Assembly (NCBI GenBank): GCA_016342355.1 | Contig: JAEINP010000008.1 | Location: 1-64,000 of the forward strand | DNA length: 64,000 nt | DNA from: Desulfatibacillum sp. | Lineage (GTDB): Bacteria; Desulfobacterota; Desulfobacteria; Desulfobacterales; Desulfatibacillaceae | Direction of reading: 5' to 3' | Shown here: in pieces, positions 38,928 to 63,408 of the stretch | How the letters are laid out: each line of letters starts with the position of its first letter | Position numbering within the stretch: the stretch's first letter is position 1 | Made by a program: the position numbers and the translations under genes | Notes under the pieces: model-generated | Told to the model about the DNA's origin: nothing | The model's database searches: none | Seen by the model: the letters and a program-made list of their open reading frames with translations, nothing else

Positions 38928-39430
38928 CATTCTCCCTTACACATGAATTTTCCTCCCGGCAAGGCAAGCCCGGAGGAGGCAAGTCCCCTCACGTGGACGG
39001 ATAAATAATGGTTCTCAACGTCAAAAAACACGTTTAAATCTCTATCATCATTGCAGATATCCAAATCGATCCCTTTTCTGGCCACCGGAATATCTGGCGA
39101 TACTACCCCAGGAAAGGAGCACTCATTTATCAGATTTCCGGTTATAATATTTGCTGCCTCTCGCACCACATCCTCCATTTCCTGCTGGCTAAGCGCTTTG
39201 GCTTCCCCGAACATATTTCCAGCCATTTTCAAACACAAAGCCCCAGACCCGGCAATCATGACCTCCAAGCCGCCATTTTTAAGGACCACGTTGGCAATGT
39301 ATGTTTCATCGCCAGTATGTTTCAAAGCATCTTCCATGCCAATTTCCCGTGGAAACATGAAATACATCTGCTCAAAAACATTGAGCACCACCTGTTTAAG
39401 AATTTCTTTAATAGGGTTTTCAGGTTCCAT
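38927..39430 (-). CDS. cheX: Chemotaxis phosphatase CheX
   Basis: A 167-residue CheX-family protein, the CheC-like class that removes phosphate from CheY-P. The catalytic ExxN pattern is seen in VVREAANIITGNLIN, followed at the expected distance by a proline region (SFPGVVSPDIP). The start at 39430 follows GGAGGT; an in-frame extension to 39592 would overlap cheR. It is the last gene of the PilZ-cheD-...-cheR run. No cheC or cheZ is seen. Confidence 0.88.
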   Translation of the reverse strand: MEPENPIKEILKQVVLNVFEQMYFMFPREIGMEDALKHTGDETYIANVVLKNGGLEVMIAGSGALCLKMAGNMFGEAKALSQQEMEDVVREAANIITGNLINECSFPGVVSPDIPVARKGIDLDICNDDRDLNVFFDVENHYLSVHVRGLASSGLALPGGKFMCKGE

Positions 39431-47962: not shown

Positions 47963-48650
47963 GCTCGTCAATGCCTTTAAGGATTTCGCTTTTCAGGGCT
48001 ACGAATTCTTTTTCACTCAAAAGGCCTTCCTTACGCCACCGGGTGAGATTTTCCAGGCGTTCGTACTGATTAGTCTGATCCCGGGCAGACTCCATGAGGT
48101 GCAGGCCGGGAAGATGTGTGGCAAAAAAGTTTATGCTTCCCGAATTTTCAATGGGTTCCGAGTCATCTCGCAGAGTGGAACTTTCCTGAGTTTCATCCTG
48201 CTTGACCAAGTCCCGGTAAGCTTCCTTGAGCTTCCACAACAAATGCTTGTTTTCCCGGACTAGACGGATTTTATCCGCCGCATTGTTAAAACAAATCTCC
48301 ATTTCCTGGAGTTTGAAAGGCTTCCTGATGTAGTTATAGGCCCCTTCCTTGATCGCCTCTATGGCGCTTTCCAGGGTGCCGTGTCCGGTAACAATGATGA
48401 CAACCACGTCGGGGTTGGTTTCCTTGGCGCGGCTCAACACCTCCAGGCCGTCCACACCCGGCATCATGAGGTCTGTGATGACAATATCCGCGGGGTTTTC
48501 ACCAATGACTTCAATGGCTTTTCGGCTGTCCGTGAAGGTTTCCACCTCCACATTGTCCCGTCCCACCAATTCCGCCAAAAGCGCTCCAACCGCACGGTCG
48601 TCGTCCACAATGACACATCGAATGCTCTGATCCCCAAAATCCGTGATCAT
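47955..48650 (-). CDS. Response regulator with C-terminal SHOCT-like helix pair
   Basis: About 231 residues: receiver (about 8-125; CVIVDDDRAVG, IVITDLMMPGVDG, KPFKLQ), a coiled coil (about 125-160), a disordered linker, and a short C-terminal unit resembling a SHOCT domain (RLENLTRWRKEGLLSEKEFVALKSEIL). No DNA-binding domain. The start at 48650 follows GGGAGG. Coupled to the HD-GYP gene by overlap, so the two probably act together. Transcribed from a good sigma-70 promoter. Confidence 0.88.
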   Translation of the reverse strand: MITDFGDQSIRCVIVDDDRAVGALLAELVGRDNVEVETFTDSRKAIEVIGENPADIVITDLMMPGVDGLEVLSRAKETNPDVVVIIVTGHGTLESAIEAIKEGAYNYIRKPFKLQEMEICFNNAADKIRLVRENKHLLWKLKEAYRDLVKQDETQESSTLRDDSEPIENSGSINFFATHLPGLHLMESARDQTNQYERLENLTRWRKEGLLSEKEFVALKSEILKGIDEHA

Positions 48651-48687
48651 CTTGCAAGGCCTCCCTAAGTCCAAGGATCGGTTCGTT

Positions 48688-48715
48688 ATTATACTATCGT
48701 AGTCTTTGTACACAA
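48688..48715 (-). promoter_or_regulatory. Sigma-70 promoter of the RR/HD-GYP pair
   Basis: TTGTGT (48715-48710), a 16-base spacer and perfect TATAAT (48693-48688) on the minus strand, about 30 bases before the expected leader end of the gene starting at 48650. The spacer up to flaG also has the small hairpin AGCCTGA (48813-48819) / TCAGGCT (48824-48830), which overlaps the flaG stop. Confidence 0.65.
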
Positions 48716-48823
48716 AAAACCGTCCTTATTCCAGTACAACTTTTTACAAACCGGACACGGCCCCACTACCGTTCCGAAAAAATTCCGGAAAGCCGGTCTG
48801 TAAATGGGATTGAGCCTGAATTC

Positions 48824-49228
48824 TCAGGCTTTGGCGTCGAACAAGACTCCCACCAGTTCTTCCATTTTGTTCACGAGGTCTAGCAAGCGCTCCGAAGGTA
48901 TTTCCCGGATAACCTCATCGGTATCCTTGTCAACCATAGTAACAGTCATGCGTCCGGTGCCTTCGTGGAATCCGTACTCAAAACCGATATTGCGCATGGA
49001 AATGTTTTCTGAGGTATGATCCTTCAGAACTTCCAGCATACCTTTGAGTAATTCCTCTTTAGGCGCCTCTTTGGCTTCATAGGTGTCTCCCACCGGCTCT
49101 TCCCGGACAGGCTTTTTTTCCTCCCTGGCTTTGGGAACCTCCTTCACAGGGGGGGGAGCAGGGGCAACTTGCAGGCCTTTGACAACCTGCATACTTTCCT
49201 TCCGTGGAGTGACAGCTTCCAAAATCAT
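48824..49228 (-). CDS. flaG: FlaG family flagellar protein
   Basis: A 134-residue FlaG-type protein. The C-terminal half is the family core (ENISMRNIGFEYGFHEGTGRMTVTMVDKDTDEVIREIPSE, then LDLVNKMEELVGVLFDAKA); the N-terminal half is a proline/lysine/glutamate-rich disordered stretch. FlaG influences filament length in other bacteria. GGAGG precedes the ATG. Last gene of the fliD-fliS-fliT-flaG set. Confidence 0.9.
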   Translation of the reverse strand: MILEAVTPRKESMQVVKGLQVAPAPPPVKEVPKAREEKKPVREEPVGDTYEAKEAPKEELLKGMLEVLKDHTSENISMRNIGFEYGFHEGTGRMTVTMVDKDTDEVIREIPSERLLDLVNKMEELVGVLFDAKA

Positions 49229-49280
49229 GATTTCAACCTCCTTCCCGACCTAATAAAACGTGGATGATCCCCCTGAGGGG

Positions 49281-49769
49281 TCACCCTATCTGAGAATCCA
49301 CAAATCGCGGCGCCCTTGGTCCGGTTGCCCTGTACCCCTTGAACACTCTTCGTTTTGCTTGCATGTCCAGGAGTCCAGCCTTGGCGGCATCGTACCTTAC
49401 CCGAACCCGGGAAAGGCACTTTTGTTCGTCAGCCACCAGCAGCGAAACAATATCCTCAATGTGTTTTACGGATTCTTCAACCTTTGCCTGGTCCTTTTCG
49501 GACAGGCAATCCATTCGCAGAACAAACATGGCCTGTTCAATTTTCTTGTCCAGGATATTGACTCTCCTGATGACTTCCTGACGCTTTTGTATTCCTATCG
49601 GGACTTTGGAAAAGTCATCCTCATCCAGCGCCTGATTGATTTCCTGGGTGGCATCGGAGTATTTCCCCAAAAGACCGGCTTTCTCCTTGGTCAGGGTGCA
49701 TAGTTCTTCCAGGTATGGGATAACGGCGAGGTTTTCAGGGACCTGTGGATTGTCTTGGGTATGTTTCAT
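49281..49769 (-). CDS. FliT/FlgN-like flagellar export chaperone (probable)
   Basis: A 162-residue, mostly helical protein. EELCTLTKEKAGLLGKYSDATQEINQAL and RQEVIRRVNILDKKIEQAM have the look of FliT/FlgN chaperones, with a basic C-terminal end (RRVFKGYRATGPRAPR). The order fliD-fliS-this gene-flaG is where fliT is usually found, so it probably chaperones FliD or hook-associated proteins. Sequence alone does not decide between FliT and FlgN. It lies 33 bases after fliS. Confidence 0.7.
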   Translation of the reverse strand: MKHTQDNPQVPENLAVIPYLEELCTLTKEKAGLLGKYSDATQEINQALDEDDFSKVPIGIQKRQEVIRRVNILDKKIEQAMFVLRMDCLSEKDQAKVEESVKHIEDIVSLLVADEQKCLSRVRVRYDAAKAGLLDMQAKRRVFKGYRATGPRAPRFVDSQIG

Positions 49770-49802
49770 GGCGTCCTCGCTATGCTTTTATTAGGCCGGC
49801 TT

Positions 49803-50243
49803 TTACACGCAAACCAGGGATGTCGGCCGTTTTTCCCACGCAGGCGTGGATTCGGGCAGAGTAGTCTTCCGGGACTCGCCGTAAAAAATCTCTTTCCAGG
49901 CGGAACCCAGTTCTTCCAACATGTGAATGACCTCGTCAAAAGCCTTGAGGTCTCCCCGTATGTCTCCTTCGGTCAATCGGCGGACCATGTAGTCGTAGAT
50001 GGACTTGAGATTTTTGGCAATATCACCGCCCTTGTCCATATCCAGGGCGCTGTTCAGTTCCCCGATGATCAACATGGCTTTCGAAAGAGCCGAGGATTTG
50101 GCCTCGTAATTGTGTTCAACATAGCGTTCCTTGGCCATCTTGAGATTGAAAATAGCCCCGTCGTAGCACATAATAACGAGCTTTTTGGGATCGGCTGTTT
50201 CCACATTGGTCTTACGATATGCGCCTATGTTATTCCCGTACAT
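49803..50243 (-). CDS. fliS: Flagellin export chaperone FliS
   Basis: A 146-residue FliS, which binds unfolded flagellin before export. The core pattern is plain: NIGAYRKTNVETADPKKLVIMCYDGAI, then SKAMLIIGELNSALDMDKGGDIAKNLKSIYDYMVRRL and a helical end EEVIHMLEELGSAWKEI-like. It sits 123 bases after fliD and before the FliT-like gene. Confidence 0.95.
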   Translation of the reverse strand: MYGNNIGAYRKTNVETADPKKLVIMCYDGAIFNLKMAKERYVEHNYEAKSSALSKAMLIIGELNSALDMDKGGDIAKNLKSIYDYMVRRLTEGDIRGDLKAFDEVIHMLEELGSAWKEIFYGESRKTTLPESTPAWEKRPTSLVCV

Positions 50244-50366
50244 CGGTCACTCCTTCGTTCCAAATTGATGGGGCTTACCCCCTATTTGTTGTTGCCTGTT
50301 AACCTTATCGACCCAATTGGGCCTTTTCTTTAATCTGTAATTATTTTTAGAGGTTCCGGTCCAGGC

Positions 50367-53300
50367 CTAACTCAGGGCACTCAACTGGGAGGTAAGCCAG
50401 TCTCCCTGATTCTGGATTCTCGAAAGGGCCAGTTCCATGGCGATGAAGCGGTTCATCATGGTTTGCGTTTTGGCGTCCAGGCGTGTTTCCATTTTTGCTA
50501 TTCTTTCGTCATAACTCTCTATCCGATCCTCCAGAGAGGTGGTTTTGGCCGTAAGGTATCCGTCCACGTCATCGGTTATGGAAAAAAGCGCCCGGTTAAA
50601 CAATTCGGCAATACCCAGTGTGAGCTTGACGTTGCCTGCGTCTACGTTTTCGGCTGTACCGGTATATTTGATGACCAGGCCTTCCACATTAGCTTGCCCC
50701 TCGTCACCCGTAAGAACCTGACCTGACCCGGTGGCGGACTCCCCGTTGATGGTTCCCGCCACGTCCTTTCCATTTTCCACGGTCTGATCCCCGGTCCAGA
50801 ACAGGTCTGCCGTTTCGGTTACGGTAAAACCGTTGCCGCTTCCGTAATAGTCATGGGTAAGGACCAACTCCCCGGTTGCGCTGGCAGAGGCGGTGACTTC
50901 CAGGGCGTATCGGCCCGTAGTGCCGCCATCATTGGTGGATTCCACTGTGCCGAAATCCAGGCCCCTTCCCAAAGGTTCCTCAATGGCAAGGGAAAGCTGG
51001 CTGTTGCCCGAGCTTCTGTCCGTCACCACAAGGCGCCCGGCGCTGTCCAGCCCGGCGGTCACGTCATCGCCGTACATGGACTCAATTTCAGCCAGGAAAT
51101 CCTGGATGGAATCCGTAGTCACGTCGCTGATGGTGTAGGACCCCTGGACCGTGGTTCCTCCCCGGCTTGTGCCTGAAAAATTGATCACATCACCGTCCAC
51201 CAGGGTGGCCCCGTCTATGCTCTGCCAGGTAAGGGATGAAGATGCGGGCAAGCCTCCGGTCAGGATGGCGTTTTCCGATGCCAGGGTCTGGGTGTATACG
51301 GTGTCAAAGTCTGTATTCAGGGCGTTTACCACGTCGGAAATGGCCATGGATGAGGTCAGGCCTACGGTGGAAACCTTGTCTCCGTCCGTGATGGTGATGG
51401 ATTCGTCACTTCCCAGAGTTCCGGCATAGGCGGTGGTGCTGGTGGCCGTGCTTTGGGTGGCTGCCTGGGTGATGTGGACCCCGTATTCCCCGGAACTGGT
51501 GTCCCGGCCGGACCGTACAAAGGTTAGGGAGCCCGTATCTGTGGCGCCCCTTGCCACAAAAAGATCCCTGATCTCATTGAAGTTGGTTTCCAGGTTTCCC
51601 CTGAGCGCTCCTTCATCAATACTCAACTGGCCATCGGTATCCACAGAGATTCCCACAAGTCCCAGAGTGGAAAAGTCGCTATTCACACCCCAGACCGATT
51701 CCACCAGGACCGAGGTGAGGTTGCGTTTGATGGACGAAAGGGTGCCGTCCCCAAACAGGGGACCGCCGGTCGTCTTATTTTCCGCGTCGTAGGTTTGCTG
51801 GTTGGCGATATAACCGGACACGTCATTATAGGAGTCCACCAGATTCTGTATCTTACCCACAATGGATTCATAGTCGTGGCCGATAGTCAGGGAAATGGTG
51901 GTATCGACGGCCGCTTTTTTGAGGTTGATGGTCACACCGGCCAGGACGTCACTGATGGTATTGTTGGAACTGGTGACCTTAACACCGTCGATATTGACCT
52001 GGGAGTCCGCGCCCTGAACCAGTTCCCTTTGCCGTACCGTATCCAGGGCGGAAAAGGCTCCGAAGTCCAGGGTGGAATTGCCGTCCGCCAGGTTGCTGGT
52101 CAGGCTGACAATGAGGTTGCTGGTTCCTGAAACATTGTCAGCCACTTCAATTTTCCCGTCCGACGTGATGTAGGCGGACACATCCCCAAAAGTGGATTGC
52201 ACAGCGTCCAGGAAATCCTGGAGCGTGGAGGCGGCGGTGATGGTGAATGTGCTGCTTACCGCTCCCCCCGCATGGTCGGTTCCTGCAATGTCTATGGTGT
52301 CCCCGGCTGTGAAGGTGTTGTACCCGTCAATATCGCTTAACAAAGAGGCGGCGGTGATCACGGCGCCTTCGGAGGTGAGGGCATTGCCCCCTGTGGTGCC
52401 GGACACGCTGGACACGCCCTTTTCCAGCACTCCCAGGGTTTCCAGGATATTCTGGTCGTCTGTGAAGGCTTGGGTTCCGTCCACCTGGAGGCGATAGACT
52501 GTGTTGCCGTCGTCGTCGGTCTGGCTGATGATGGACGCGCTCACGCCGGATATGCCTGCGCTGTTTATCTTGGTTTTGATAGTCTCCAGGGAATCCGTGG
52601 AAAGATCCAGGGCCACAGAAGTCCCGCCAATGGTCACATTACCCGATTGATTGGCGGACAGTTCCAACAGGCTTTTTACCACCTGTGTGGAGCTGGCGAA
52701 CTGATCTGACTGAGCGCCGCCGGTTATGGCTGTTTTTACGCTGGAAACGGAATCCTTGAAACCGAATTTTTCCACAAGATCGACAGCGGAGCCATTGGCC
52801 ACGCCCATGCCGTCTTTACCGGTTGCCTGACTGGTGATGACCAAACGGGTGTCGTTGGTTCCATAGCTGACGATACTGGCGGAAATCCCTGAGGGATTGG
52901 CGCCCGAGTTGGCGTTGTTTATTTTGTCGCGCACATCCTTGAGGGTATCAGAAGCAGAAAAATTTACCACTTTGCCGTTGAGCAAAATCTCCCCGGCGTA
53001 ATCCGCGCCCAGAGCTGTGCTGGAGTCGGTAAATGACCCGGAAGAAAGTTTTTGCGCGGTGGCAAGTTTTTCCACCTTGATGTTATAGTCGCCCGACAAT
53101 GCGGAGGAGGTGGTGGACACGGATACCAGGTCCTCGGCGTCCAGGGTGGTGGAGTCGGTGGACATGGTGGAAGAATATAGATAGAAGTCATCCGAAGTGG
53201 TCAGGTCCTCTGCCGCGCCTTTAAGAGACAGGAGACGGGTGTTGAGGGAACGCCATTCGCTGAGCTCATTCTGCACTTGGGACTGTTTGTTGGTCATGAT

Positions 53301-53399
53301 ATTGACCGTGCCGCGCTCCACGTTTATCAACTGCTCCACCATGGAACGCCAGTCAAACCCACTGGCCAAACCAGAAACTGAAGTTGCGCTTGTCGCCAT
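50367..53399 (-). CDS. fliD: Flagellar cap protein FliD, oversized with a duplicated insert
   Basis: A 1010-residue FliD; family members are commonly about 450-700. The N-terminal FliD domain (SGLASGFDWRSMVEQLI, 8-110) and two flagellin-IN-like units (about 134-190 and 253-310) are followed by an extra domain A (about 352-448). The main C-terminal domain starts near 463 and carries a second copy, domain B (about 722-818), before the coiled-coil end (DVDGYLTAKTTSLEDRIESY, 944-963). A and B share GD-I-GT, TI, QDFL, GD-V and DFG positions. FliD caps the growing filament. AGGAGGA precedes the ATG. Confidence 0.95.
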   Translation of the reverse strand: MATSATSVSGLASGFDWRSMVEQLINVERGTVNIMTNKQSQVQNELSEWRSLNTRLLSLKGAAEDLTTSDDFYLYSSTMSTDSTTLDAEDLVSVSTTSSALSGDYNIKVEKLATAQKLSSGSFTDSSTALGADYAGEILLNGKVVNFSASDTLKDVRDKINNANSGANPSGISASIVSYGTNDTRLVITSQATGKDGMGVANGSAVDLVEKFGFKDSVSSVKTAITGGAQSDQFASSTQVVKSLLELSANQSGNVTIGGTSVALDLSTDSLETIKTKINSAGISGVSASIISQTDDDGNTVYRLQVDGTQAFTDDQNILETLGVLEKGVSSVSGTTGGNALTSEGAVITAASLLSDIDGYNTFTAGDTIDIAGTDHAGGAVSSTFTITAASTLQDFLDAVQSTFGDVSAYITSDGKIEVADNVSGTSNLIVSLTSNLADGNSTLDFGAFSALDTVRQRELVQGADSQVNIDGVKVTSSNNTISDVLAGVTINLKKAAVDTTISLTIGHDYESIVGKIQNLVDSYNDVSGYIANQQTYDAENKTTGGPLFGDGTLSSIKRNLTSVLVESVWGVNSDFSTLGLVGISVDTDGQLSIDEGALRGNLETNFNEIRDLFVARGATDTGSLTFVRSGRDTSSGEYGVHITQAATQSTATSTTAYAGTLGSDESITITDGDKVSTVGLTSSMAISDVVNALNTDFDTVYTQTLASENAILTGGLPASSSLTWQSIDGATLVDGDVINFSGTSRGGTTVQGSYTISDVTTDSIQDFLAEIESMYGDDVTAGLDSAGRLVVTDRSSGNSQLSLAIEEPLGRGLDFGTVESTNDGGTTGRYALEVTASASATGELVLTHDYYGSGNGFTVTETADLFWTGDQTVENGKDVAGTINGESATGSGQVLTGDEGQANVEGLVIKYTGTAENVDAGNVKLTLGIAELFNRALFSITDDVDGYLTAKTTSLEDRIESYDERIAKMETRLDAKTQTMMNRFIAMELALSRIQNQGDWLTSQLSALS

Positions 53400-53448
53400 T
53401 ATTTGATCCTCCTCCGCTGAGAATCTTTTCCATTCTTAGAAAAAATTC

Positions 53449-53484
53449 CTGTGGGAAAAATTTTCCACAGACCCCGAATGGGGT
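53449..53484 (-). promoter_or_regulatory. Two adjacent inverted repeats in the fliD leader
   Basis: A 22-base near-perfect palindrome (53449-53470, ends CTGTGG / CCACAG with an AT centre) is followed directly by ACCCC-GAAT-GGGGT (53471-53484). Both lie between the predicted transcription start of fliD and its ribosome site, so they would fold in the leader RNA. They could regulate translation or bind a protein. Confidence 0.5.
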
Positions 53485-53499
53485 GGAAACCTATTATTA

Positions 53500-53526
53500 C
53501 TATCGGAAATTTTTGCCGATATCTTA
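53500..53526 (-). promoter_or_regulatory. Sigma-28 (FliA) type promoter of fliD
   Basis: TAAGATAT (53526-53519), an 11-base spacer and TCCGATAG (53507-53500) on the minus strand match the consensus TAAAGTTT-N11-GCCGATAA at 11 of 16 positions with exact spacing. Transcription would start near 53493, about 95 bases before fliD. Confidence 0.6.
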
Positions 53527-53568
53527 AGGTTTATTAGGAGTTATGCAATAAGCAGGCCGCAATAGGAT

Positions 53569-53603
53569 GGCCCGCCCCCTGAGGAAGTGCGTGGGGGCGG
53601 GCC
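53569..53603 (-). terminator. GC-rich hairpin after flagellin gene 1
   Basis: An 11-pair perfect stem GGCCCGCCCCC (53569-53579) / GGGGGCGGGCC (53593-53603) with a 13-base loop lies 26 bases after the flagellin stop. No T-run follows, so it may stabilise the message or need Rho for termination. Confidence 0.6.
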
Positions 53604-53628
53604 GGTTTGCCGAAGCAAGGGGATCAGT

Positions 53629-54759
53629 TTATCCTATGAGCTGAAGTACTGTCTGGGGCGCCGAATTTGCCTGGGCAAGCATGGCGGTACCGGACTGCAT
53701 CAGGATCTGGTTTTTGGTAAATGACGTCATTTCCGAGGCCATATCCACATCCTGGATGACGGACATGGCGGCAGTGTTGTTTTCGATGGCGATGTTCAGG
53801 TTGGCGAATGTATAGTCCAGCCTGTTCTGAATAGCACCGATTTCCGCCCGGGAAGAGTTGAGGGCGGTCATGGCGTTATCTATCATGTCAATGGAAGACC
53901 GGGCGTTGGCCAGGGTGGAAAGATCCACGCCGCCCACGGACAAACCGTTTTGGTTCATGGCATCCAGCTGGAAGCTGATGCGGTAATCACTGGTATTCTT
54001 TTCACCAACCTGGAAGGTGGCATCAGCGACGGACGCGGTCAAGGTATCGCCCACAGAGGCGACGCTGGTAGCCAGAGCCGCGGAATCCGCTGCCGTGGTG
54101 GTCTTAAAGGACACCCCAAAGGTGCTGAAATCGTAGGAATCGCCGCCAGACCCGACTGTCAGGGTCTGGGTTTCCACAGTGCCGGTTCCGGTGTACACCA
54201 TGGTAATAACCGAGGCTCCGGCAGAGGTGAAGTGAATGCTATCAGCGTCCGTCCCCTTGAAATTGGACACATCGAAGTCATACATGTTACTGACCGACCC
54301 CACACTTCCGGCATCAGCAGCCACCAAGCCCTTGGTGCCGTATCCTGTAAGCAGGGAGGAACCCTGGAAGGTGGTGGTGGTGGCGATCCGGTCCATTTCC
54401 GTAAGCAACTGGGTTGCTTCTGCGTTGAGGTCACTCAGGTTCTGTTCGTTGTTCTTGGATGATGCCTGGGTGGACAGTTCCTTCAACCGCACCAAAATGG
54501 AGTCGATTTGCTCCACGCCGCCTTCTGCGATCTGCAATAGGGAATTGGCCTGGGTGGTGTTGTTGGCAGCGACTGCCTGTGATTTTACTTGTGCGTCGAA
54601 TTTGCGGGACATGGAAAGTCCTGCGGCATCGTCTTTTGCGCGGTTGATCCGTAAACCGGATGATAAGCGTTCCAGGGACTTGCTCACTTTGGAATCAGTG
54701 ATTCCTAATTGCCTGTGCGCAGCGATTGCCGAGATGTTGTTTGCGACTCTGAGACCCAT
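53629..54759 (-). CDS. Flagellin (copy 1)
   Basis: A 376-residue flagellin. Conserved N-terminal D0/D1 (MGLRVANNISAIAAHRQLG ... SGLRINRAKDDAAGLSMSRKF), a short variable middle (about 150-270), and C-terminal D1/D0 (NARSSIDMIDNAMTALNSSRAEIGAIQNRLDYT, then ENTAA-like NNTAAMSVIQDVDMASEM ending PQTVLQLIG). The true start is 54759 (AAGGAGGA upstream); the frame runs further to 54798. About 13 of 376 residues differ from copy 2. The middle is small, so the filament surface domain is modest. Exported and chaperoned by FliS. Confidence 0.97.
   Translation of the reverse strand: MGLRVANNISAIAAHRQLGITDSKVSKSLERLSSGLRINRAKDDAAGLSMSRKFDAQVKSQAVAANNTTQANSLLQIAEGGVEQIDSILVRLKELSTQASSKNNEQNLSDLNAEATQLLTEMDRIATTTTFQGSSLLTGYGTKGLVAADAGSVGSVSNMYDFDVSNFKGTDADSIHFTSAGASVITMVYTGTGTVETQTLTVGSGGDSYDFSTFGVSFKTTTAADSAALATSVASVGDTLTASVADATFQVGEKNTSDYRISFQLDAMNQNGLSVGGVDLSTLANARSSIDMIDNAMTALNSSRAEIGAIQNRLDYTFANLNIAIENNTAAMSVIQDVDMASEMTSFTKNQILMQSGTAMLAQANSAPQTVLQLIG
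54655..54735 (-). other. Diverged codon patch in flagellin copy 1 (codons 9-35)
   Basis: Codons 9-35 use a different codon from copy 2 at 22 of 27 positions, yet only one residue differs (Ala13 versus Ser13). Codons 36-65 differ at only 5 of 30. The equivalent patch in copy 2 is 56188-56268. The boundary looks like the edge of a gene-conversion tract. Confidence 0.75.
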
Positions 54760-54874
54760 GTTAAAATCCTCCTTGAAAATGGCGGCCGGATTCCTCAAAC
54801 CGACAACCTTTTCTGACTTCCTTGCCAGAAGTCCAAAAACTGCTGTGTACTGATCCTGCTTATGATGCTTCGGC

Positions 54875-54885
54875 TCACCTCCTTT
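54875..54885 (-). promoter_or_regulatory. Shine-Dalgarno-like element in flagellin 1 leader
   Basis: AAAGGAGGTGA on the minus strand, an almost perfect match to the anti-16S sequence, lies about 116 bases upstream of the start codon with no usable start nearby. The flagellin 2 leader has the identical element at 56422-56432. A weak sigma-28-like -10 (GTCGATAT, 54931-54924) lies about 40 bases further upstream, while its -35 is poor. The rest of 54760-55161 is AT-rich spacer with hairpins near its far end. Confidence 0.5.
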
Positions 54886-55056
54886 CGAAAACTTCGGAAA
54901 CTTTTACTCTTTCCTTACTTAATATATCGACATTCCGACTTTGTTTCTTGAGATATTATTTATGTTACTTACTGTTTTATTTTATTATTCTCGTACTAAT
55001 TACTACTAAAATTTTAAAAATTTCCCTTTGGATTTTTTACTAACTTTGAGTGAGAT

Positions 55057-55144
55057 GGGCCCGGACGTAGCCCGGGCCCTGAGGTGAAAGTGAGAGTGAA
55101 ATAAAATGCTATGATTTGAATGGGGACCCGGCGGACCGGGTCCC
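55057..55144 (-). terminator. Two tandem GC-rich hairpins after flagellin gene 2
   Basis: Hairpin one: GGGACCCGG (55123-55131) / CCGGGTCCC (55136-55144), 18 bases past the flagellin 2 stop. Hairpin two: GGGCCCGG (55057-55064) / CCGGGCCC (55072-55079). Neither has a clear T-run on the minus strand. They may protect abundant flagellin mRNA or terminate together with Rho. Confidence 0.6.
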
Positions 55145-55161
55145 ATGGATGAGCGTGACGC

Positions 55162-56292
55162 TTAGCCTATGAGGCTGAGTATGTTCTGGGGAGCCGAGTT
55201 TGCCTGGGCAAGCATGGCGGTACCGGACTGCATGAGGATCTGATTCTTGGTGAACGATGTCATTTCCGAGGCCATATCCACATCCTGGATAACGGACATG
55301 GCGGCGGTGTTGTTTTCGATGGCGATGTTCAGGTTGGCGAAGGTGTAATCCAGCCTGTTTTGGATAGCCCCGATTTTGGCCCGGGAAGTATTGAGGGCGC
55401 TCATGGCGTTATCAATCATGTCGATGGAAGACCGGGCGTTGGCCAGGGTGGACATATCCACACCGCCGACTGACAAACCACCTGAGTTCATGGCATCCAG
55501 CTGGAAACTGATGCGGTAGTCACTGGTGTTCTTTTCACCCACCTGGAAGGTGGCATCAGCGACGGATGCGGTCAAGGTGTCGCCCACAGAGGCAACGCTG
55601 GTAGCCAGGGCTGCGGAATCCGCTGCCGTGGTGGTCTTGAAAGACACTCCAAAGGTGCTGAAATCGTAAGTATCGCCGCCGGACCCGACTGTCAGGGTCT
55701 GGGTTTCCACTGTACCGGTTCCAGTGTACACCATGGTGATAACGGAAGCGCCGGCAGAGGTGAAGTGAATGCTATCGGCGTCCGACCCCTTAAAATTGGA
55801 CACGTCGAAGTCGTACATGTTGCTGACCGACCCCACACTGCCGGCATCAGCCGCCACCAAGCCCTTGGTGCCGTACCCTGTGAGCAGGGAGGAACCCTGG
55901 AAGGTGGTGGTTGTGGCGATCCGGTCCATTTCCGTGAGCAACTGAGTTGCTTCTGCGTTAAGGTCACTCAGGTTCTGTTCGTTGTTCTTAGATGATGCCT
56001 GGGTGGACAGTTCCTTCAAACGCACCAAGATGGCGTCAATTTGCTCCACGCCGCCTTCTGCAATCTGCAGCAGGGAGTTTGCTTGGGTGGTGTTGTTGGC
56101 AGCGACTGCCTGGGATTTGACTTGTGCATCGAATTTACGGGACATGGAAAGTCCTGCGGCATCGTCTTTTGCACGGTTGATCCGTAAGCCTGAAGAAAGT
56201 CTTTCTAATGATTTTGAAACCTTGGAGTCGGTGATACCAAGTTGACGGTGGGCGCTTATGGCGGAAATGTTGTTTGCGACTCTGAGACCCAT
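55162..56292 (-). CDS. Flagellin (copy 2)
   Basis: A 376-residue flagellin about 96-97 percent identical to copy 1 by direct comparison. Differences cluster at the C-terminal end (MNSGG versus MNQNG; PQNILSLIG versus PQTVLQLIG) and include Ser13 for Ala13. Same short middle domain. CAAGGAGGATTT precedes the ATG, as in copy 1. It has the better sigma-28 promoter of the pair and is followed by two hairpins. A tandem duplication kept alike by conversion or selection fits. Confidence 0.97.
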   Translation of the reverse strand: MGLRVANNISAISAHRQLGITDSKVSKSLERLSSGLRINRAKDDAAGLSMSRKFDAQVKSQAVAANNTTQANSLLQIAEGGVEQIDAILVRLKELSTQASSKNNEQNLSDLNAEATQLLTEMDRIATTTTFQGSSLLTGYGTKGLVAADAGSVGSVSNMYDFDVSNFKGSDADSIHFTSAGASVITMVYTGTGTVETQTLTVGSGGDTYDFSTFGVSFKTTTAADSAALATSVASVGDTLTASVADATFQVGEKNTSDYRISFQLDAMNSGGLSVGGVDMSTLANARSSIDMIDNAMSALNTSRAKIGAIQNRLDYTFANLNIAIENNTAAMSVIQDVDMASEMTSFTKNQILMQSGTAMLAQANSAPQNILSLIG

Positions 56293-56421
56293 GATAAATC
56301 CTCCTTGATTTGAAGCCGGTATTTTTTTCCCGGCGTTTTTTTAATCGGCATCCGTGCCGAAGTTCTTACTGAAAATTAGGTTGGTGTTTGTTCAAGGTTA
56401 ATCCGTTAGCCTTAAGAAGTC

Positions 56422-56432
56422 TCACCTCCTTT
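56422..56432 (-). promoter_or_regulatory. Shine-Dalgarno-like element in flagellin 2 leader
   Basis: AAAGGAGGTGA, identical to the one ahead of flagellin 1, starts about 25 bases after the predicted transcription start and lies 130 bases before the start codon. Together with the true ribosome site it gives two GGA-containing sites in the leader, an arrangement like the CsrA sites on Bacillus hag mRNA. No csrA or fliW is in the window. Confidence 0.5.
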
Positions 56433-56461
56433 ATTTTCATGTTCCGTATGTCTTAGTTACT

Positions 56462-56488
56462 GTATCGGAACTCGGACAAAGAACTTTA
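56462..56488 (-). promoter_or_regulatory. Sigma-28 (FliA) promoter of flagellin 2
   Basis: TAAAGTTC (56488-56481), an 11-base spacer and TCCGATAC (56469-56462) match TAAAGTTT-N11-GCCGATAA at 13 of 16 positions with exact spacing. The start would be near 56455, giving a leader of about 160 bases. Confidence 0.8.
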
Positions 56489-56510
56489 AGAAAATTCTTT
56501 GCTCCAAACG

Positions 56511-56542
56511 CAAAAAACCTTCCCCAAAGGGAAGGTTTTTTT
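56511..56542. terminator. Bidirectional rho-independent terminator
   Basis: AAAACCTTCCC (56514-56524) / GGGAAGGTTTT (56529-56539) with loop CAAA and A/T runs on both sides. It lies about 30 bases beyond the stop of the Maf gene and separates the glycosylation operon from the flagellin genes. Confidence 0.85.
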
Positions 56543-56571
56543 AAACGCCTGAAATTAATACATTATTCAAA

Positions 56572-58440
56572 TCATGATTGGGAAAGCGCCCTTTCCCCCA
56601 TTTCCAATGCCTCGTTCAACGACAGGCACAATTGGCCAAAAGCCCCCATAAAAAACTCGGCCAGCTTCAGGCGATAGGCGTTGCCCCAGTCCTCATCCTC
56701 GAACCGGTCCAGGGCAACCTCCCACTCCATGACAAGGGGAACGATCTCCGTATGAAAATATTCCTGCAACGAGAATATAAATGGAGACATGGTAAGGTCC
56801 GCGATAATGGAGTCCACGGATTGCATGGCATGATTAACTCCCGCCCTCAACACAAAATCCATGTCCCCCTCCATGGCCTCCAACTTTCGAAGCAAAGGCC
56901 CTACGATTTCCAGCCCTTGTTTGCACCGGGCGATGGCTGTTTCACTGTTTTCCTTCCACTCTTTCAATACATGGAGGTTTTCCTTGGCAGGGTTGGAGCC
57001 CTTGGCCTTGGACACAATGGAAAGAGCCCTGTCCCTGGGGCCGAACTCTTCCGTGCAATATGTGTCGATGGCCTGGGCCAGGGGCATGACCTTGGTCCCC
57101 ACGATCCTTGCTCCCCCTTCCGTGGCGTTGATGACCGTTCCCTCATAGGTGGCGAATCTGGCCTCATAGTCCTTCATGCATTTGTACCAAATTTCACAGG
57201 TAACCACGTCTTCCCCCAGGTTGCCGGGCACAGTAAAGGTGTTACCCGTGAAGGTGCTCTGCTTGGTGCCAAAGGCATTGCCCGCCGCATGGGTAAGGCC
57301 GTTCGGGTCCTGGGCCAGGTCATTGCCCACCAGTATAATAGGGTCGCATCCCATGAGTTTGGCCAGTTCAAACCCGGCGATGGCTGTGGACAGGCCCATA
57401 TCCAGGACGTCCTGGTCCATGCCTAAGTCCAGGAAAAACTTGTACCGTCTCGTCATGAAGAGTTTGGGGCCTTTGTGGGCATGCACAGAACTGGGATGGG
57501 CGAAGGAGGGTACCAGATGGATGGTTTTTTCCATATTTTTCAGGCCTATGAAGAACTTGTCAATGCCCGGGGTGCGCTCGATGGTCGTGGCGAAATGGGG
57601 ATACAAACCCATGTTGTGGAGAATCTTGAGGGACGCATCCACGCTGATAATCACTGCCTTATTGGTGATTAGCTTGAGCTGGTGCATGTTTTTTTTGAGA
57701 GAAGGCCCGGTCGCCACAATGATCGCCGGTTTTTTTTCAAAAGCGTTTTCCACACACCGTAAATTGGGGGACTTGTCATAGAGATCCAGATTGCGGAAAA
57801 AATTTTCGTAGGAGGCCAGAGTGTCGTAGGGCTCATTGCCCCGGAGAGCGATCCAAAGGTCGCCCATGTCGGCAATGGCTTTGCGGGCCGAGTCGTAATA
57901 CTCGGGATCAATCGCCAGGGACGCAGGCCAGGGCGCCCACCTGAGAGCCTTGAAATACCGGTAACAGAGGTTGTCCATGGCTGCCTTGACCTGGGTGAAC
58001 AGGTCGTCTTCACGGCTTTCGCAAAGAATTCTTATGTCCGGATTTTCCAGGGGGCCGGTAAGGTCTGTCACCTCCATGGCCATTTTCAAGCATTCCAGGT
58101 CCTTCTCCACCACAAGCACCCGTTTGAGGCGGCCGGAATCCTTCATGAGGTGATCCAGGAACAAAAGCTGATAACCCAGTCCTACCCCAAAAAGCACCAC
58201 AAAGGGAGCCTTTTCCATGGAGGCGCCTTCAAAGACATTTTTCACATGAAGGAGGGGGGCCATGGTATCATCATAAAATATGACGTTCTTTTCAGGAGTG
58301 GACCAAGCTAGGTTGGGCGGCCCATTATCAGGGGAAGATATAAGGTGATAATTCCCCGAGCCTGCTCCTGCCAAGCGGTGGGCCATCTCCGGGTATCTCT
58401 CCCTCAATTTCTTTAAATTATTAACAAATATCGAATTCAT
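56572..58440 (-). CDS. Motility-associated glycosyltransferase Maf (DUF115)
   Basis: About 622 residues. An N-terminal Maf domain (with FVVLFGVGLGYQLLFLDHL near residue 80) is followed by a DUF115/MptE-like domain (PAIIVATGPSLKKN near 240, then VIISVDASLKILHNMG and TTIERTPG). Maf proteins transfer nonulosonic-type sugars to flagellin in several genera, and the gene sits next to the flagellins. The start at 58440 follows GGAGGG and overlaps the upstream stop as ATGA. It closes the operon before a bidirectional terminator. Confidence 0.9.
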   Translation of the reverse strand: MNSIFVNNLKKLRERYPEMAHRLAGAGSGNYHLISSPDNGPPNLAWSTPEKNVIFYDDTMAPLLHVKNVFEGASMEKAPFVVLFGVGLGYQLLFLDHLMKDSGRLKRVLVVEKDLECLKMAMEVTDLTGPLENPDIRILCESREDDLFTQVKAAMDNLCYRYFKALRWAPWPASLAIDPEYYDSARKAIADMGDLWIALRGNEPYDTLASYENFFRNLDLYDKSPNLRCVENAFEKKPAIIVATGPSLKKNMHQLKLITNKAVIISVDASLKILHNMGLYPHFATTIERTPGIDKFFIGLKNMEKTIHLVPSFAHPSSVHAHKGPKLFMTRRYKFFLDLGMDQDVLDMGLSTAIAGFELAKLMGCDPIILVGNDLAQDPNGLTHAAGNAFGTKQSTFTGNTFTVPGNLGEDVVTCEIWYKCMKDYEARFATYEGTVINATEGGARIVGTKVMPLAQAIDTYCTEEFGPRDRALSIVSKAKGSNPAKENLHVLKEWKENSETAIARCKQGLEIVGPLLRKLEAMEGDMDFVLRAGVNHAMQSVDSIIADLTMSPFIFSLQEYFHTEIVPLVMEWEVALDRFEDEDWGNAYRLKLAEFFMGAFGQLCLSLNEALEMGERALSQS

Positions 58441-60836
58441 GTTCCCTCCTGACCCGAGACCAGGCATACCGCTCCATTTAATAAAAGAAACCGTTCTTCC
58501 ATATGCCCGGTTTTTTCCAGGGCGCTCGCCACTGTCTCCACCTTGGCCATAAAATCCATACCCTGATCAAAAGCAGCCTCCTTGTCCCCCTTGATCAGGT
58601 AGCCGAGGTCCTCCAAGCATGAAAGAGCCCCGTGGACCACCCCCAGGGCGGACAGGGTAAAAAACCTGGAAGCCTGGGCCAAAAGAAAGCCCGGGTCCTT
58701 GTCCAGAACAACCTGCAGCAACTCCACGGCTCCGTCCACATCCTGGCCGCCCAGGCACGCCAATGCCTTGTGGGTAAGGAAGCTCTTTTCCTCATGGGAA
58801 TTTTCAAAGGATTGATCATCGGTTTCAAATTTCAGAGCAGCCAGAGCTTCGAAATCGCTGTTCTTTAATAAATAGGATGCATAAGCATTGAGCACGGGAG
58901 GGGAGTCATGCCCCTTTTCCAGCAGATCCTCGTAATTTTTCCGGGCGAATTCCGGGTCCGTGTCCTCCATCATAAGGGCCAGACGCAGGATCAAGCGCCA
59001 GTTGTCCGATTCCACCGGATGCAACTGGTTGAGAATTCTAAGCCAATGCAGACTTTTTTCCTCGTGGCCTATGGATGAAAAATCTTGCACCGCGTTGGTG
59101 ACAACGGACAGGGAGGGATTTTCCGTTGCGTCATAGGCTTTTTCCTTTCTCATGACCCTGAACTCCCGGCCGTATTCGTCATGGATAACGTTCAGTTGCC
59201 CGGGGGGAATGCTTTTGACGTTGATCTTTAAAGCTGCCAGGGAAGATGCCACAGACTCCACCACCCTGCCCTCAAAACGGATTTCGGGAATCCGGGGAAA
59301 AATCCTTATGGCCGAGGTCTGGGGGATAAAATTATCTGGCAGTGCAGAGATGATAAGCCAGTCCGTAGTGACATCGGTCCGGCCGACAGGCAGTTCATAA
59401 GCCACCCTGGACTGCTTGGACAGGAGGGCCTTTAGAAAAAGCAGATTGATGCGATGGAAAGGAGACAAACGCTCGTCTGCATCCAGAAAAAAAACATAGT
59501 CCCCGGTGGCCTTTTCCATGGCAAGGTTGCGGGGGGCGGAAAAATCATCCCCCCAGGGATGCTCAAAGACCAGAGCTCCCATTTCCCTGGCTATTTCCTT
59601 GGTGTTATCTGCGGAACCCGTATCCACCACAACCATTTCGTCCACCAATCCGGCGACAGAGGCCAAAGCCCTGGGCAGGGCGTCCGCCTCATCCCTGGCG
59701 ATCATACACAGGCTGAGGCGAATGTCCTTTTCCTGGTTGGCTTCCATGCTTTTCATGAAAAAATCTATACCGGACCGCACACCGTCTTCCAGCAAGGGAG
59801 ATTCCAAAGCCTTTTGAAATGCCTCCCGAGCCCTTTGATGCTTCCCGGTAATCAGGTACATTTTCCCCAGATTGAATAAAGCTTCGGGATCTTCCTGATC
59901 CAGGTCCCTGGCCTTTTCAAAATAGTCCATGGCCTCGTCCAGCCTGCCCCGCATGGTTAGGACCGCACCGCATACCTGGGCCAGCATGGGGCTTTGGACA
60001 AACCAATGCCCGGGAACCAAGGGGACCAGTTTTTCGGCGGATTCAAAATCACCCGTGAGGGTGAGGTAATTGAACGCATAGGTAAGAATTTCCGTATTCC
60101 CCAGGCCCTCTTCCATTCCCCGGATGATGCCGGGTATATGGGCCTTCCTGATAAGCAAATACATGGAAGGCGGCCACACAAAACGGGCGCAAAACCGTGT
60201 GTCGTCATAAAACTGCTGATGGCCTTGCTTGAACATTTCCAGGGCAGGGGGTTTTTCCGGAGGCGTTTTAACATATTCGCCTTTGGCAACCAGGGTCAGG
60301 GGCGCGAGTTTTAATTTGATGGCCTGAGGCAGATTATCCACCAAAAGAACGTCCTGCCCCATCCTGGATATGCGCACACTCAATGTTTTGCCCTGAAAAG
60401 CAGCCCGGGGTATGAGACGAGGCTCCTGGGTTATGACCGTGGAAATAAACTCCCCGGGATTGTCGTACACATCCCGGGTTCCCGCCCATTCGTACCTGCT
60501 CAGGATGGAAGCGGACAGACGATTTTTGACTGTCACCAGAAGGGGTTTCTTTTTAGCGCCCGCCAACAGGTCCAGAGCATTTTGCAGGCCCTGAGGATCC
60601 AGGCTTTCCTTCTTGCGGGAGAGCAAAATCCACTCTGTTTTTGCCTGACTCAAATCCAACAGCACACGTTCCCCTTCCCGGGTTGCCCGAATTGACCCAA
60701 GGGTTTCATCAGGCTCCAACTTATCCGGAGAACAAATATGCAGTTCCAGCACGGGCTCTTCCCAAACAGAAAAATCCTCACTGTCCGGGACGGTAACCAG
60801 ACCCAGGATCCGGGAATTTTCATTAGTATTATTCAT
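58437..60836 (-). CDS. Family 2 glycosyltransferase with TPR repeats
   Basis: About 799 residues. The N-terminal 200 residues are an unassigned domain. TPR-type repeats follow (about 285-350, EAMDYFEKARDLDQEDPEALFNLGKMY). A GT2 catalytic domain begins near 374 (LSLCMIARDEADALPRALASV, VVVDTGSADNTKEIA), with the DxD-type LDADER near 452. A C-terminal helical-repeat region closes it. It should add a nucleotide-activated sugar, probably on flagellin, given its place next to Maf. The ATG at 60836 follows GGAGAG and overlaps the preceding stop (ATGA). Confidence 0.88.
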   Translation of the reverse strand: MNNTNENSRILGLVTVPDSEDFSVWEEPVLELHICSPDKLEPDETLGSIRATREGERVLLDLSQAKTEWILLSRKKESLDPQGLQNALDLLAGAKKKPLLVTVKNRLSASILSRYEWAGTRDVYDNPGEFISTVITQEPRLIPRAAFQGKTLSVRISRMGQDVLLVDNLPQAIKLKLAPLTLVAKGEYVKTPPEKPPALEMFKQGHQQFYDDTRFCARFVWPPSMYLLIRKAHIPGIIRGMEEGLGNTEILTYAFNYLTLTGDFESAEKLVPLVPGHWFVQSPMLAQVCGAVLTMRGRLDEAMDYFEKARDLDQEDPEALFNLGKMYLITGKHQRAREAFQKALESPLLEDGVRSGIDFFMKSMEANQEKDIRLSLCMIARDEADALPRALASVAGLVDEMVVVDTGSADNTKEIAREMGALVFEHPWGDDFSAPRNLAMEKATGDYVFFLDADERLSPFHRINLLFLKALLSKQSRVAYELPVGRTDVTTDWLIISALPDNFIPQTSAIRIFPRIPEIRFEGRVVESVASSLAALKINVKSIPPGQLNVIHDEYGREFRVMRKEKAYDATENPSLSVVTNAVQDFSSIGHEEKSLHWLRILNQLHPVESDNWRLILRLALMMEDTDPEFARKNYEDLLEKGHDSPPVLNAYASYLLKNSDFEALAALKFETDDQSFENSHEEKSFLTHKALACLGGQDVDGAVELLQVVLDKDPGFLLAQASRFFTLSALGVVHGALSCLEDLGYLIKGDKEAAFDQGMDFMAKVETVASALEKTGHMEERFLLLNGAVCLVSGQEGT

Positions 60837-61405
60837 GGTTCTCTCCAAAAGCTAAGGGAATCCCGCTGGGATTTTATAGACCCGAACCATAATTCGTCCT
60901 GATATTCACCATAGACCAGCGAGTGTTCCCGCCAACGGCCTTCCTCCACCATGTTTAGGCGTCTTGCGCCCTCCAGGCAGGCTATGTTGCCTTCCAGGAT
61001 GCCCATGTACAGGCGGCGGAGCCCCAACACATCAAAGGCATAGGGGATGATGAGGGATAAAACCGCATGGGCGCATTCCGGGCGGGCGTGCTTTTTATCA
61101 CCAATCATAAGCCCTATGTCTGCGGTGCCGCTAATCCAGTTGATGGCGTTAAGCGTCACATTGCCCACGTGTTTGTCCCTGTCCTGGTGATGGACAATGG
61201 CAAATGCCACGCCTGTTGTAGAGCTGTCAAAACGGGCCACGTATTGGGACAAATCTTCCAGGGTGCATGGAAACTTGCCTACGGTGAGATAGGCGTTGAC
61301 CTCGGGATCGGAAATCCACTTAAGGTATTTGGCATTGGCGTCCTCGGCCATGAGCTTCCTCAGACCGTAACTCCCTAAACGCATGATAATGGGTGCACTA
61401 TCCAT
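60833..61405 (-). CDS. GNAT acetyltransferase (RimJ/PseH-like)
   Basis: A 190-residue N-acetyltransferase of the GNAT fold. The RimJ/RimL-type start KYLKWISDPEVNAYL and the acyl-CoA-binding stretch around GLMIGDKKHARPECAHAVLSL are visible; that stretch lacks the usual Q/RxxGxG/A spacing and is the weakest match. The start at 61405 follows AAGGAGA. In sugar clusters such proteins acetylate amino-sugar nucleotides, as PseH does. Its partner GNAT is encoded at 62827. Confidence 0.8.
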   Translation of the reverse strand: MDSAPIIMRLGSYGLRKLMAEDANAKYLKWISDPEVNAYLTVGKFPCTLEDLSQYVARFDSSTTGVAFAIVHHQDRDKHVGNVTLNAINWISGTADIGLMIGDKKHARPECAHAVLSLIIPYAFDVLGLRRLYMGILEGNIACLEGARRLNMVEEGRWREHSLVYGEYQDELWFGSIKSQRDSLSFWREP

Positions 61406-61415
61406 TTTCCTCTCC

Positions 61416-62834
61416 TTAGCTATCTTCCATGTCCAGATCAATGACGCCCTGCCGGTTCAGTCGATTTTTGGATGGCTCGGGGCAGGAACCCTCGCGTTCC
61501 CGGTAAATCGGGCTGTAATTCAGGTCCACCAAACCCTTTTCATAAAAACGCCGGGCGTACTTGGCCACCCGGTCAAAGCTCAGGTCCAGATCCTGGCTGA
61601 TTTCCAGGACGGATTTGTCTCCTTCAAAGGCCAATAGGATTTGTTCAATGGCATCGTCTTTGTTCAGGTCCTCGTACAGGCCGTATTTGGATAAAAACAG
61701 GTTACCTGTATATTTTCGGGCCGGATACCAATTGGTTTCCAGCATATTGATAAAACGCTTACAGGTGTCCAAAGACTCCTTGATCATTCCCATGCTGATG
61801 ATGTCCGGGGAATCGTCGCTGGTATGGTATTCAGGATATGGCCACCGGGTGAGGGAAATGCAGGGGATGTTGATACCCGGACCATTTATATTGATTTCGT
61901 CGTTGCAAATAACCTTACGGAAAGCACCCACGCCGTAGGGTTTTTCATTATGGGCTACGGCCAGCTCCATGAGTTGATCTATCACGGTGTTTCCCTGGCG
62001 GGAATACTGGATTTTAAGGTGATTCCTGTTGCCAAGCATCTCCAAAAAAACCGCGCCCTTGAAATCAGGAATCAAATGCCGGTTTTTATAAAAATAGCAC
62101 AGGGAGCCAATGTTTTCAGGATGGGTGATGAGCCGATAGGTGAAATGACTGGCCGGAGAACTGGCAAGCCACTTCATGAGCATAAGCCCCAAAGCCACGC
62201 CCGCCAGCCCGTCGTTCACCTGGCCTGGATGGCATAAATGGGCGGACAAGAGGATGGATTCCCGGGATTGGCCCGGAACCACCCACTCCCCCACCTTCAT
62301 TTCACCGGATTCAAAACGGGTGTCCACCACCACATTATAAGGTCCCTCTCCCAGGCCCTTGACCACGTTATATGGCAGGCAAAAGCTCCAGTCCTCTTTA
62401 TAATAATGATAGTGATAGGGAATGGCCGCCGGACGGTCCGGGTTGGTGACCACATGCTTTAACAGTTCCTGTTTATCGAGGTCGCCCCTAAAGGGTATGG
62501 AATAGGAGGACAAATACAGGGGATGGAGAAAAAAATCAGCAATGGTCTTGCCGTCAGCATCCTTTATATAAGCCTCGTTGACCACCCATTTTTTCGGAAC
62601 CTTCCAGGTAAAGACTTCGGCGCCGCTTTTTACGGCATGGACTTTCATGGGCAGGATGTTACCCAGGTAGTCCAGGGCCTTATCGTAATCGTCGGAAACA
62701 AGGGTCCTGTCCAAGATGTGTAGATCCCGGCAAATATCCATGACACCGGCAACCTCCGGGTCATGGGCCAGGTCTTCGCCGGGTATTGCAAGGTCAAAGG
62801 AAGGCTTGAAATCAAATTTCCATTTATTATGCAT
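61416..62834 (-). CDS. DUF4910/DUF2172 aminopeptidase-like protein with winged-helix tail
   Basis: A 472-residue protein of the aminopeptidase-like family that recurs in polysaccharide loci. Zinc-peptidase-like residues lie in SAHLCHPGQVNDGLAGVALG, FLEMLGNR and YHTSDDSPD; the metal-ligand pattern is what M28-like enzymes show. A C-terminal winged helix (about 400-460, QILLAFEGDKSVLEISQDLD) matches the family HTH. It ends 10 bases before the GNAT gene at 60833-61405. A role in hydrolysing an N-acyl or peptide link in a sugar pathway is inference. The start at 62834 overlaps the upstream stop by eight bases. Confidence 0.85.
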   Translation of the reverse strand: MHNKWKFDFKPSFDLAIPGEDLAHDPEVAGVMDICRDLHILDRTLVSDDYDKALDYLGNILPMKVHAVKSGAEVFTWKVPKKWVVNEAYIKDADGKTIADFFLHPLYLSSYSIPFRGDLDKQELLKHVVTNPDRPAAIPYHYHYYKEDWSFCLPYNVVKGLGEGPYNVVVDTRFESGEMKVGEWVVPGQSRESILLSAHLCHPGQVNDGLAGVALGLMLMKWLASSPASHFTYRLITHPENIGSLCYFYKNRHLIPDFKGAVFLEMLGNRNHLKIQYSRQGNTVIDQLMELAVAHNEKPYGVGAFRKVICNDEININGPGINIPCISLTRWPYPEYHTSDDSPDIISMGMIKESLDTCKRFINMLETNWYPARKYTGNLFLSKYGLYEDLNKDDAIEQILLAFEGDKSVLEISQDLDLSFDRVAKYARRFYEKGLVDLNYSPIYREREGSCPEPSKNRLNRQGVIDLDMEDS

Positions 62835-63408
62835 GACAACATCCTGCCTGGGGTTTTTGCCGGGCTTTCCAATCTTCCACCCACAATCCCAGAAGGATTT
62901 CATCCTGGAATTTACAGTCCATGCGCCATTGATTTTTCAAAACACCTTCCCGCGAAAAACCCGCCTTGATAAAGGCCTTTTCCGAGCCCTTATTGTCTGC
63001 ATAGCACCCAGCCCTCACCTTGTTGAGATTGAGAATGTTAAAGGCATATGCAGAAATCAGGGATATGGCTTCGGTGGCGATCCCCTTTCCCCAATAGCCT
63101 GTTTCCCCGATGATCAGGCTGATGTCGCCAAACCCGTGAATCCAATTGATGGGTCCCAACTTGATGTTCCCTATGTGCAGGTTGTTTTCCGGGTCGCAAA
63201 TGGCCAGGAAAATTTCGTTCCTATTGCCGTCCAGGGAGCGTACGTAAGAAAGAATCTGCTCCACAGAATGGGGAACATACCGGACTTCCAGATATTTCGT
63301 AATACCAGGATCATTCATCCACCGGTAATAGTTGTCGTTCACATCGGATTCACGGACTTCCCTCAGATAGATCCTGTCTCCCTTGATGAACTTGGGTTTT
63401 TGGCTCAT
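62827..63408 (-). CDS. GNAT acetyltransferase, sugar-modification type
   Basis: A 193-residue GNAT. IYLREVRESDVNDNYYRWMNDPGITKYLEVR is a typical start, and the acyl-CoA-binding loop is seen in IIGETGYWGKGIATEAISLI, which keeps the GxGIATEA pattern. The ATG at 63408 overlaps the upstream stop (ATGA). With the other GNAT and a formyltransferase-like gene it suggests a set of acyl groups put on amino sugars. Confidence 0.88.
   Translation of the reverse strand: MSQKPKFIKGDRIYLREVRESDVNDNYYRWMNDPGITKYLEVRYVPHSVEQILSYVRSLDGNRNEIFLAICDPENNLHIGNIKLGPINWIHGFGDISLIIGETGYWGKGIATEAISLISAYAFNILNLNKVRAGCYADNKGSEKAFIKAGFSREGVLKNQWRMDCKFQDEILLGLWVEDWKARQKPQAGCCHA

Follow-up and report, generated by a model that had tools for sequence, protein, structure and literature searches.

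Partial concerted evolution of a tandem flagellin gene pair in Desulfatibacillum, with old sequence at both ends of the reading frames

Introduction

Duplicate flagellin genes are known to evolve in concert. In Campylobacter, flaA and flaB swap sequence by recombination within the genome (Meinersmann and Hiett 2000, as cited in PMC5126078). In a large survey of prokaryotes, fla of the Alteromonadales is among 26 concertedly evolving genes, and its tandem copies are closer within than between species; the cases surveyed are full-length and ongoing, and for fla independent tandem duplication could not be excluded (PMC6053082). Control of a flagellin gene through its leader has been described for Campylobacter jejuni, in which CsrA-FliW controls the flaA leader, which has two GGA sites of the form CANGGANG (PMC4894983).

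Here, we describe a tandem flagellin pair in a 64,000-nucleotide stretch of DNA from Desulfatibacillum sp. (assembly GCA_016342355.1, contig JAEINP010000008.1), referred to below as the window. As in Campylobacter, the copies appear to have exchanged sequence within the genome. In contrast to flaA/flaB, the old ends of the genes can be resolved here against a sister species, and antigenic variation is not implied. The pair also shares with fla of the Alteromonadales a greater likeness within than between species; however, homogenization here is partial, and the unconverted ends and leaders exclude independent duplication. The leaders recall that of C. jejuni flaA, except that here both flagellin copies carry the candidate sites, recognized as motifs and predicted hairpins.

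Results

The two flagellin genes lie in tandem on the minus strand, copy 1 (the downstream gene) at positions 53629..54759 and copy 2 (the upstream gene) at 55162..56292. Each encodes 376 amino acids with matches to Flagellin_N and Flagellin_C, and the two are of equal length without gaps. A genome-wide search with the flagellin protein (E value of 0.001) returned these two genes in total, and no third flagellin gene was found at that threshold in the draft genome of 142 contigs. Upstream of the pair, positions 56572-62903 hold a Maf/MptE-like gene, a TPR and family 2 glycosyltransferase, an acetyltransferase, and a DUF4910/DUF2172 protein, and the region looks like a flagellin glycosylation cluster. 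Elsewhere in the window, an open reading frame (ORF) of 162 amino acids between flaG and fliS (49281-49769) had no Pfam match at an E value of 0.001. After copy 2, a G+C-rich stem-loop without a T run (55060-55085), found by eye in the alignment, is kept in the sister species.

Copies 1 and 2 differ at 107 of 376 codons and at 124 nucleotides over their whole length, with 35 bases as the longest identical run. The differences are concentrated in codons 9 to 35 (copy 1, 54655..54735; copy 2, 56188..56268; both minus strand), where 22 of 27 codons differ and A13S is the sole amino acid change; in codons 36 to 65, 5 of 30 differ. These counts agree exactly with those of the original prediction, which was made from the sequence of the window. 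Its statement that the codons differ only in this patch was too strong, since most of the differing codons (85 of 107) are found elsewhere in the gene. The remainder of the gene is partly homogenized, not identical: in four blocks covering codons 36 to 362, 17 to 27% of synonymous codons differ between the copies. The clustering is not due to chance. When the 107 differing codons were redistributed over the 376 positions, none of 20,000 shuffles reached the 22 differing codons of the densest 27-codon window (shuffle maximum, 19). Codons 1 to 8 are identical in both copies and in one gene of the sister pair; in the other gene of that pair, 2 of the 8 are different. Throughout, we counted differing synonymous codons instead of using NG86 rates, because within the patch these rates are saturated and two-step serine changes inflate them.

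To place these differences in time, we compared four genes: copies 1 and 2 and the flagellin pair of Desulfatibacillum alkenivorans DSM 16219, the one sister species in a genus represented by 2 genomes, one per species. The sister genes share 86 and 87% identity with copy 2 and have the same neighbors on both flanks. Sites that group the four genes by species were taken as homogenized and sites that group them by gene position as old. Across codons 9 to 35, 10 informative sites grouped by position, none by species, and 2 in neither way. The pattern was reversed in codons 36 to 340 (103 by species, 8 by position, 4 neither), and the few sites in codons 341 to 369 were by species (2, against 0 by position and 1 neither). 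At the very end of the gene, codons 370 to 376, grouping by position returned (8 sites, versus 1 by species). This arrangement along the gene was nonrandom, with 0 of 2,000 shuffles matching it on three measures (7 cross-type sites excluded).

Likelihood tree tests gave the same picture. The by-position tree was preferred, and the by-species tree rejected, for codons 9 to 35 (AU = 0.001) and codons 363 to 376 (AU = 0.022), whereas the by-species tree was preferred for codons 141 to 290, with the by-position tree rejected at AU = 2e-74. For codons 291 to 362, the by-position tree was rejected by the AU test (0.034) but not by the SH test (0.135); for codons 36 to 140, the by-species tree was preferred and the by-position tree was not rejected (AU = 0.12). 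By both site patterns and tree tests, then, the tree changes sharply along the gene. The homogenized interior extends over codons 36 to 369 (copy 1, 53653..54654; copy 2, 55186..56187; both minus strand), decisively so in codons 141 to 290. The last seven codons (copy 1, 53632..53652, ending in QLIG; copy 2, 55165..55185, ending in SLIG; both minus strand) are a second, smaller old remnant, to which the tree test on codons 363 to 376 applies.

Synonymous divergence along the genes, which was predicted to be uneven, proved to be so in both pairs and, between codons 9 and 290, was highest in codons 9 to 35. The fraction of synonymous codons that differ between the copies here is 0.81 in codons 9 to 35, 0.17 in codons 36 to 65, 0.22 in codons 66 to 140, and 0.22 in codons 141 to 290; the corresponding fractions in the sister pair are 0.70, 0.52, 0.28, and 0.05. 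Divergence in the sister pair is thus raised from the gene start to about codon 137, and the boundary of the diverged N-terminal stretch is unlike in the two species. In codons 141 to 290, paralogues within a species are more alike than orthologues between species, synonymous sites included: 31 of 142 synonymous codons differ within the pair here and 7 of 143 within the sister pair, compared with 49 of 113 and 45 of 113 between species. Judged from the within-species counts, homogenization here is older than in the sister pair, but it reaches up to codon 36. Outside the reading frames, the leaders match their sister counterparts at 74 and 70%, and those of copies 1 and 2 match each other at 52% in a forced alignment.

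The genes are therefore mosaics, in which duplication came first and homogenization of the interiors second. Because the ends group by position and the interior by species, the duplication predates the species split, and the interiors were homogenized separately afterwards; the by-position ends and leaders and the shared neighbors all point to this greater age. We estimate at about 80% the probability that an old tandem duplication was followed by gene conversion that homogenized the interiors separately in each species and left out the ends. The tandem duplication occurred before the split from D. alkenivorans, and gene conversion, the process that we infer, would have rewritten one interior from the other by homologous recombination between neighboring copies, independently in each species. 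The ends of the reading frames lie next to unlike leaders and unlike downstream sequence and would have escaped, most simply because the homologous stretch runs out there. The patch in codons 9 to 35 would be what remained at the N terminus: its synonymous differences arose before the species split, and its amino acids would have stayed unchanged because the N-terminal helix of flagellin is strongly constrained. Next to the patch, the downstream copy may have been the donor, overwriting the upstream copy: in the sequence shared by copies 1 and 2 within codons 36 to 140, 24 sites resemble the downstream gene of the sister species, 12 the upstream gene, and 5 neither. This direction is only tentatively suggested, since the shared state in these codons could also be ancestral. 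The original prediction of old paralogues homogenized except for a short N-terminal patch is thus borne out by the four-gene comparison in its main part, although the C-terminal end is unconverted as well and the N-terminal boundary differs between species.

Several points count against the reading of the patch as a conversion leftover. The by-position tree survives the AU test in codons 36 to 140 and the SH test in codons 291 to 362, and the comparison draws on one sister species. In addition, the upstream patch is unusually weakly folded in both species, which that reading does not predict, and diverged N termini are exceptional among other adjacent flagellin pairs. Among 43 such pairs, 20 had a nucleotide identity of at least 0.75, and 4 of these 20 showed an N-terminal excess at an uncorrected p < 0.01 (the sister pair L005, L041, the first pair of L120, and L124); below the identity cut, L119 and L121 showed it also. 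The reverse pattern, a start with little or no change, was seen in L034 (0 of 26) and the second pair of L033 (3 of 26). Diverged N termini thus recur but are not a general rule. In this survey, starts were set by a heuristic that shifted the bins of several pairs through residues extra or missing at the start (L008, L024, L025, L042, L043, and L123 included), and 13 of the regions were picked by eye among the matches listed rather than sampled at random. A Lachnospiraceae pair (L041:367-2799) has a like profile, with 11 of 21 synonymous codons differing in codons 9 to 35, 8 of 13 in the final 14 codons, and 16 to 22% in the interior bins.

The alternative that fares best, although we consider it unlikely, is that selection on the mRNA maintains the patch: a weakly folded, A/T-rich coding start would be needed in the upstream gene but not in the downstream gene, and conversions into codons 9 to 35 would be removed. 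RNA folding of the 5' coding regions is where this idea gains most. When the leader was kept constant, the upstream gene of each species folded more weakly than every one of 200 synonymous redraws; this was not so for the downstream genes. The fold z scores are 3.53 and 2.61 upstream and 1.48 and −0.81 downstream, against a maximum of 2.6 among 40 other ORFs of the window; with each gene's own codons, they are 3.30 and 2.78 upstream and 1.54 and −0.51 downstream, against −3.32 to 2.63 in 14 other flagellins. However, when codons were permuted within the patch, z fell to 1.98 and 1.76, and base composition therefore accounts for much of the weak folding. Well-expressed genes ordinarily have a weakly folded start. 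We also rejected the possibility that the patch was chosen for start-site access, given that the ribosome site was predicted to be equally open with real, redrawn, and swapped patches. Nor is the patch under unusual synonymous constraint: between species, its synonymous codons (13 of 26 and 10 of 23 differ) change as fast as those of the neighboring Maf-like gene (239 of 504) and fliD (379 of 792). Finally, the unconverted stretch is of different length in the sister species. We therefore regard the weak fold of the upstream patch as a probable by-product, with a slim chance of its having contributed to the survival of the patch. We give a similarly low probability to the idea that selection for a weakly folded upstream start acts as a conversion barrier, such that silent codons, not a difference in protein, set where homogenization stops. 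The proposal that the patch is kept different on purpose gains little from these results, with ordinary synonymous change and start-site access that does not depend on the patch; the weak upstream fold keeps it alive at low odds.

Translation control, if it separates or links the two copies, would more likely act in the leaders than in the patch. We examined 170 bases of each leader (minus strand). That of copy 1 (54760..54929) contains two CANGGANG sites, one in a predicted hairpin (54811-54830) and one over the Shine-Dalgarno sequence (54768-54775), and that of copy 2 (56293..56462) likewise contains two, in a predicted hairpin (56345-56360) and over the Shine-Dalgarno sequence (56300-56307). 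All four leaders of the two species have exactly two such sites. The distal site lies at −64 to −68, within a predicted hairpin; the proximal site covers the Shine-Dalgarno sequence and is partly that sequence itself. Among 40 other ORFs hand-chosen from the ORF list of the window, none had two sites and 6 had one. In 14 flagellin loci assigned to the delta group by record labels (L006-L013, L057, L065, L066, L068, L071, and L072, with some close relatives such as L065 and L066), a site was present at −14 to −17 in 14 of 14 leaders and at least two sites in 12 of 14, the second usually 38 to 68 bases before the start. For comparison, 48 other ORFs were picked mechanically from these loci at 200 amino acids or more; 2 of them had two sites and 4 had one at −18 to −13. 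The csrA and fliW genes are adjacent in this genome (G000:C115:38658-38813 and 39017-39388). The paired candidate sites resemble those of CsrA-FliW control of a flagellin leader; we make no claim that paired-site leaders are unpublished. No Rfam match at the gathering score was obtained for a structured RNA at the locus (48000-58000). Upstream of copy 2, a candidate promoter (56462..56489, minus strand) was found by eye in the alignment and is conserved in the sister species; it resembles the sigma-28 consensus.

Two further explanations are far less probable. Horizontal transfer could have brought codons 9 to 35 into one copy from an unrelated third flagellin, as the third-position G+C content of the copy 2 patch might suggest (0.41, versus 0.70 in the rest of the gene). 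However, both patches group with their sister counterparts (10 of 10 decisive sites; AU = 0.001), and therefore neither is a recent import; such a third flagellin was not found in the draft genome at an E value of 0.001. Least probable is an assembly artefact in which two repeats were collapsed or mixed, conceivable in a 142-contig draft but a poor explanation of the spread of the 124 differences throughout the genes and of a layout that recurs, with different boundaries, in the assembly of another species.

Discussion

The Desulfatibacillum pair is a clear example of a known process, concerted evolution, and calls for no new mechanism. It provides a clean case of bacterial tandem genes that have evolved only partly in concert. 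Its unconverted ends rule out independent tandem duplication, the alternative left open for flagellins in the large survey (PMC6053082). Different stretches of one flagellin gene yield opposite gene trees.
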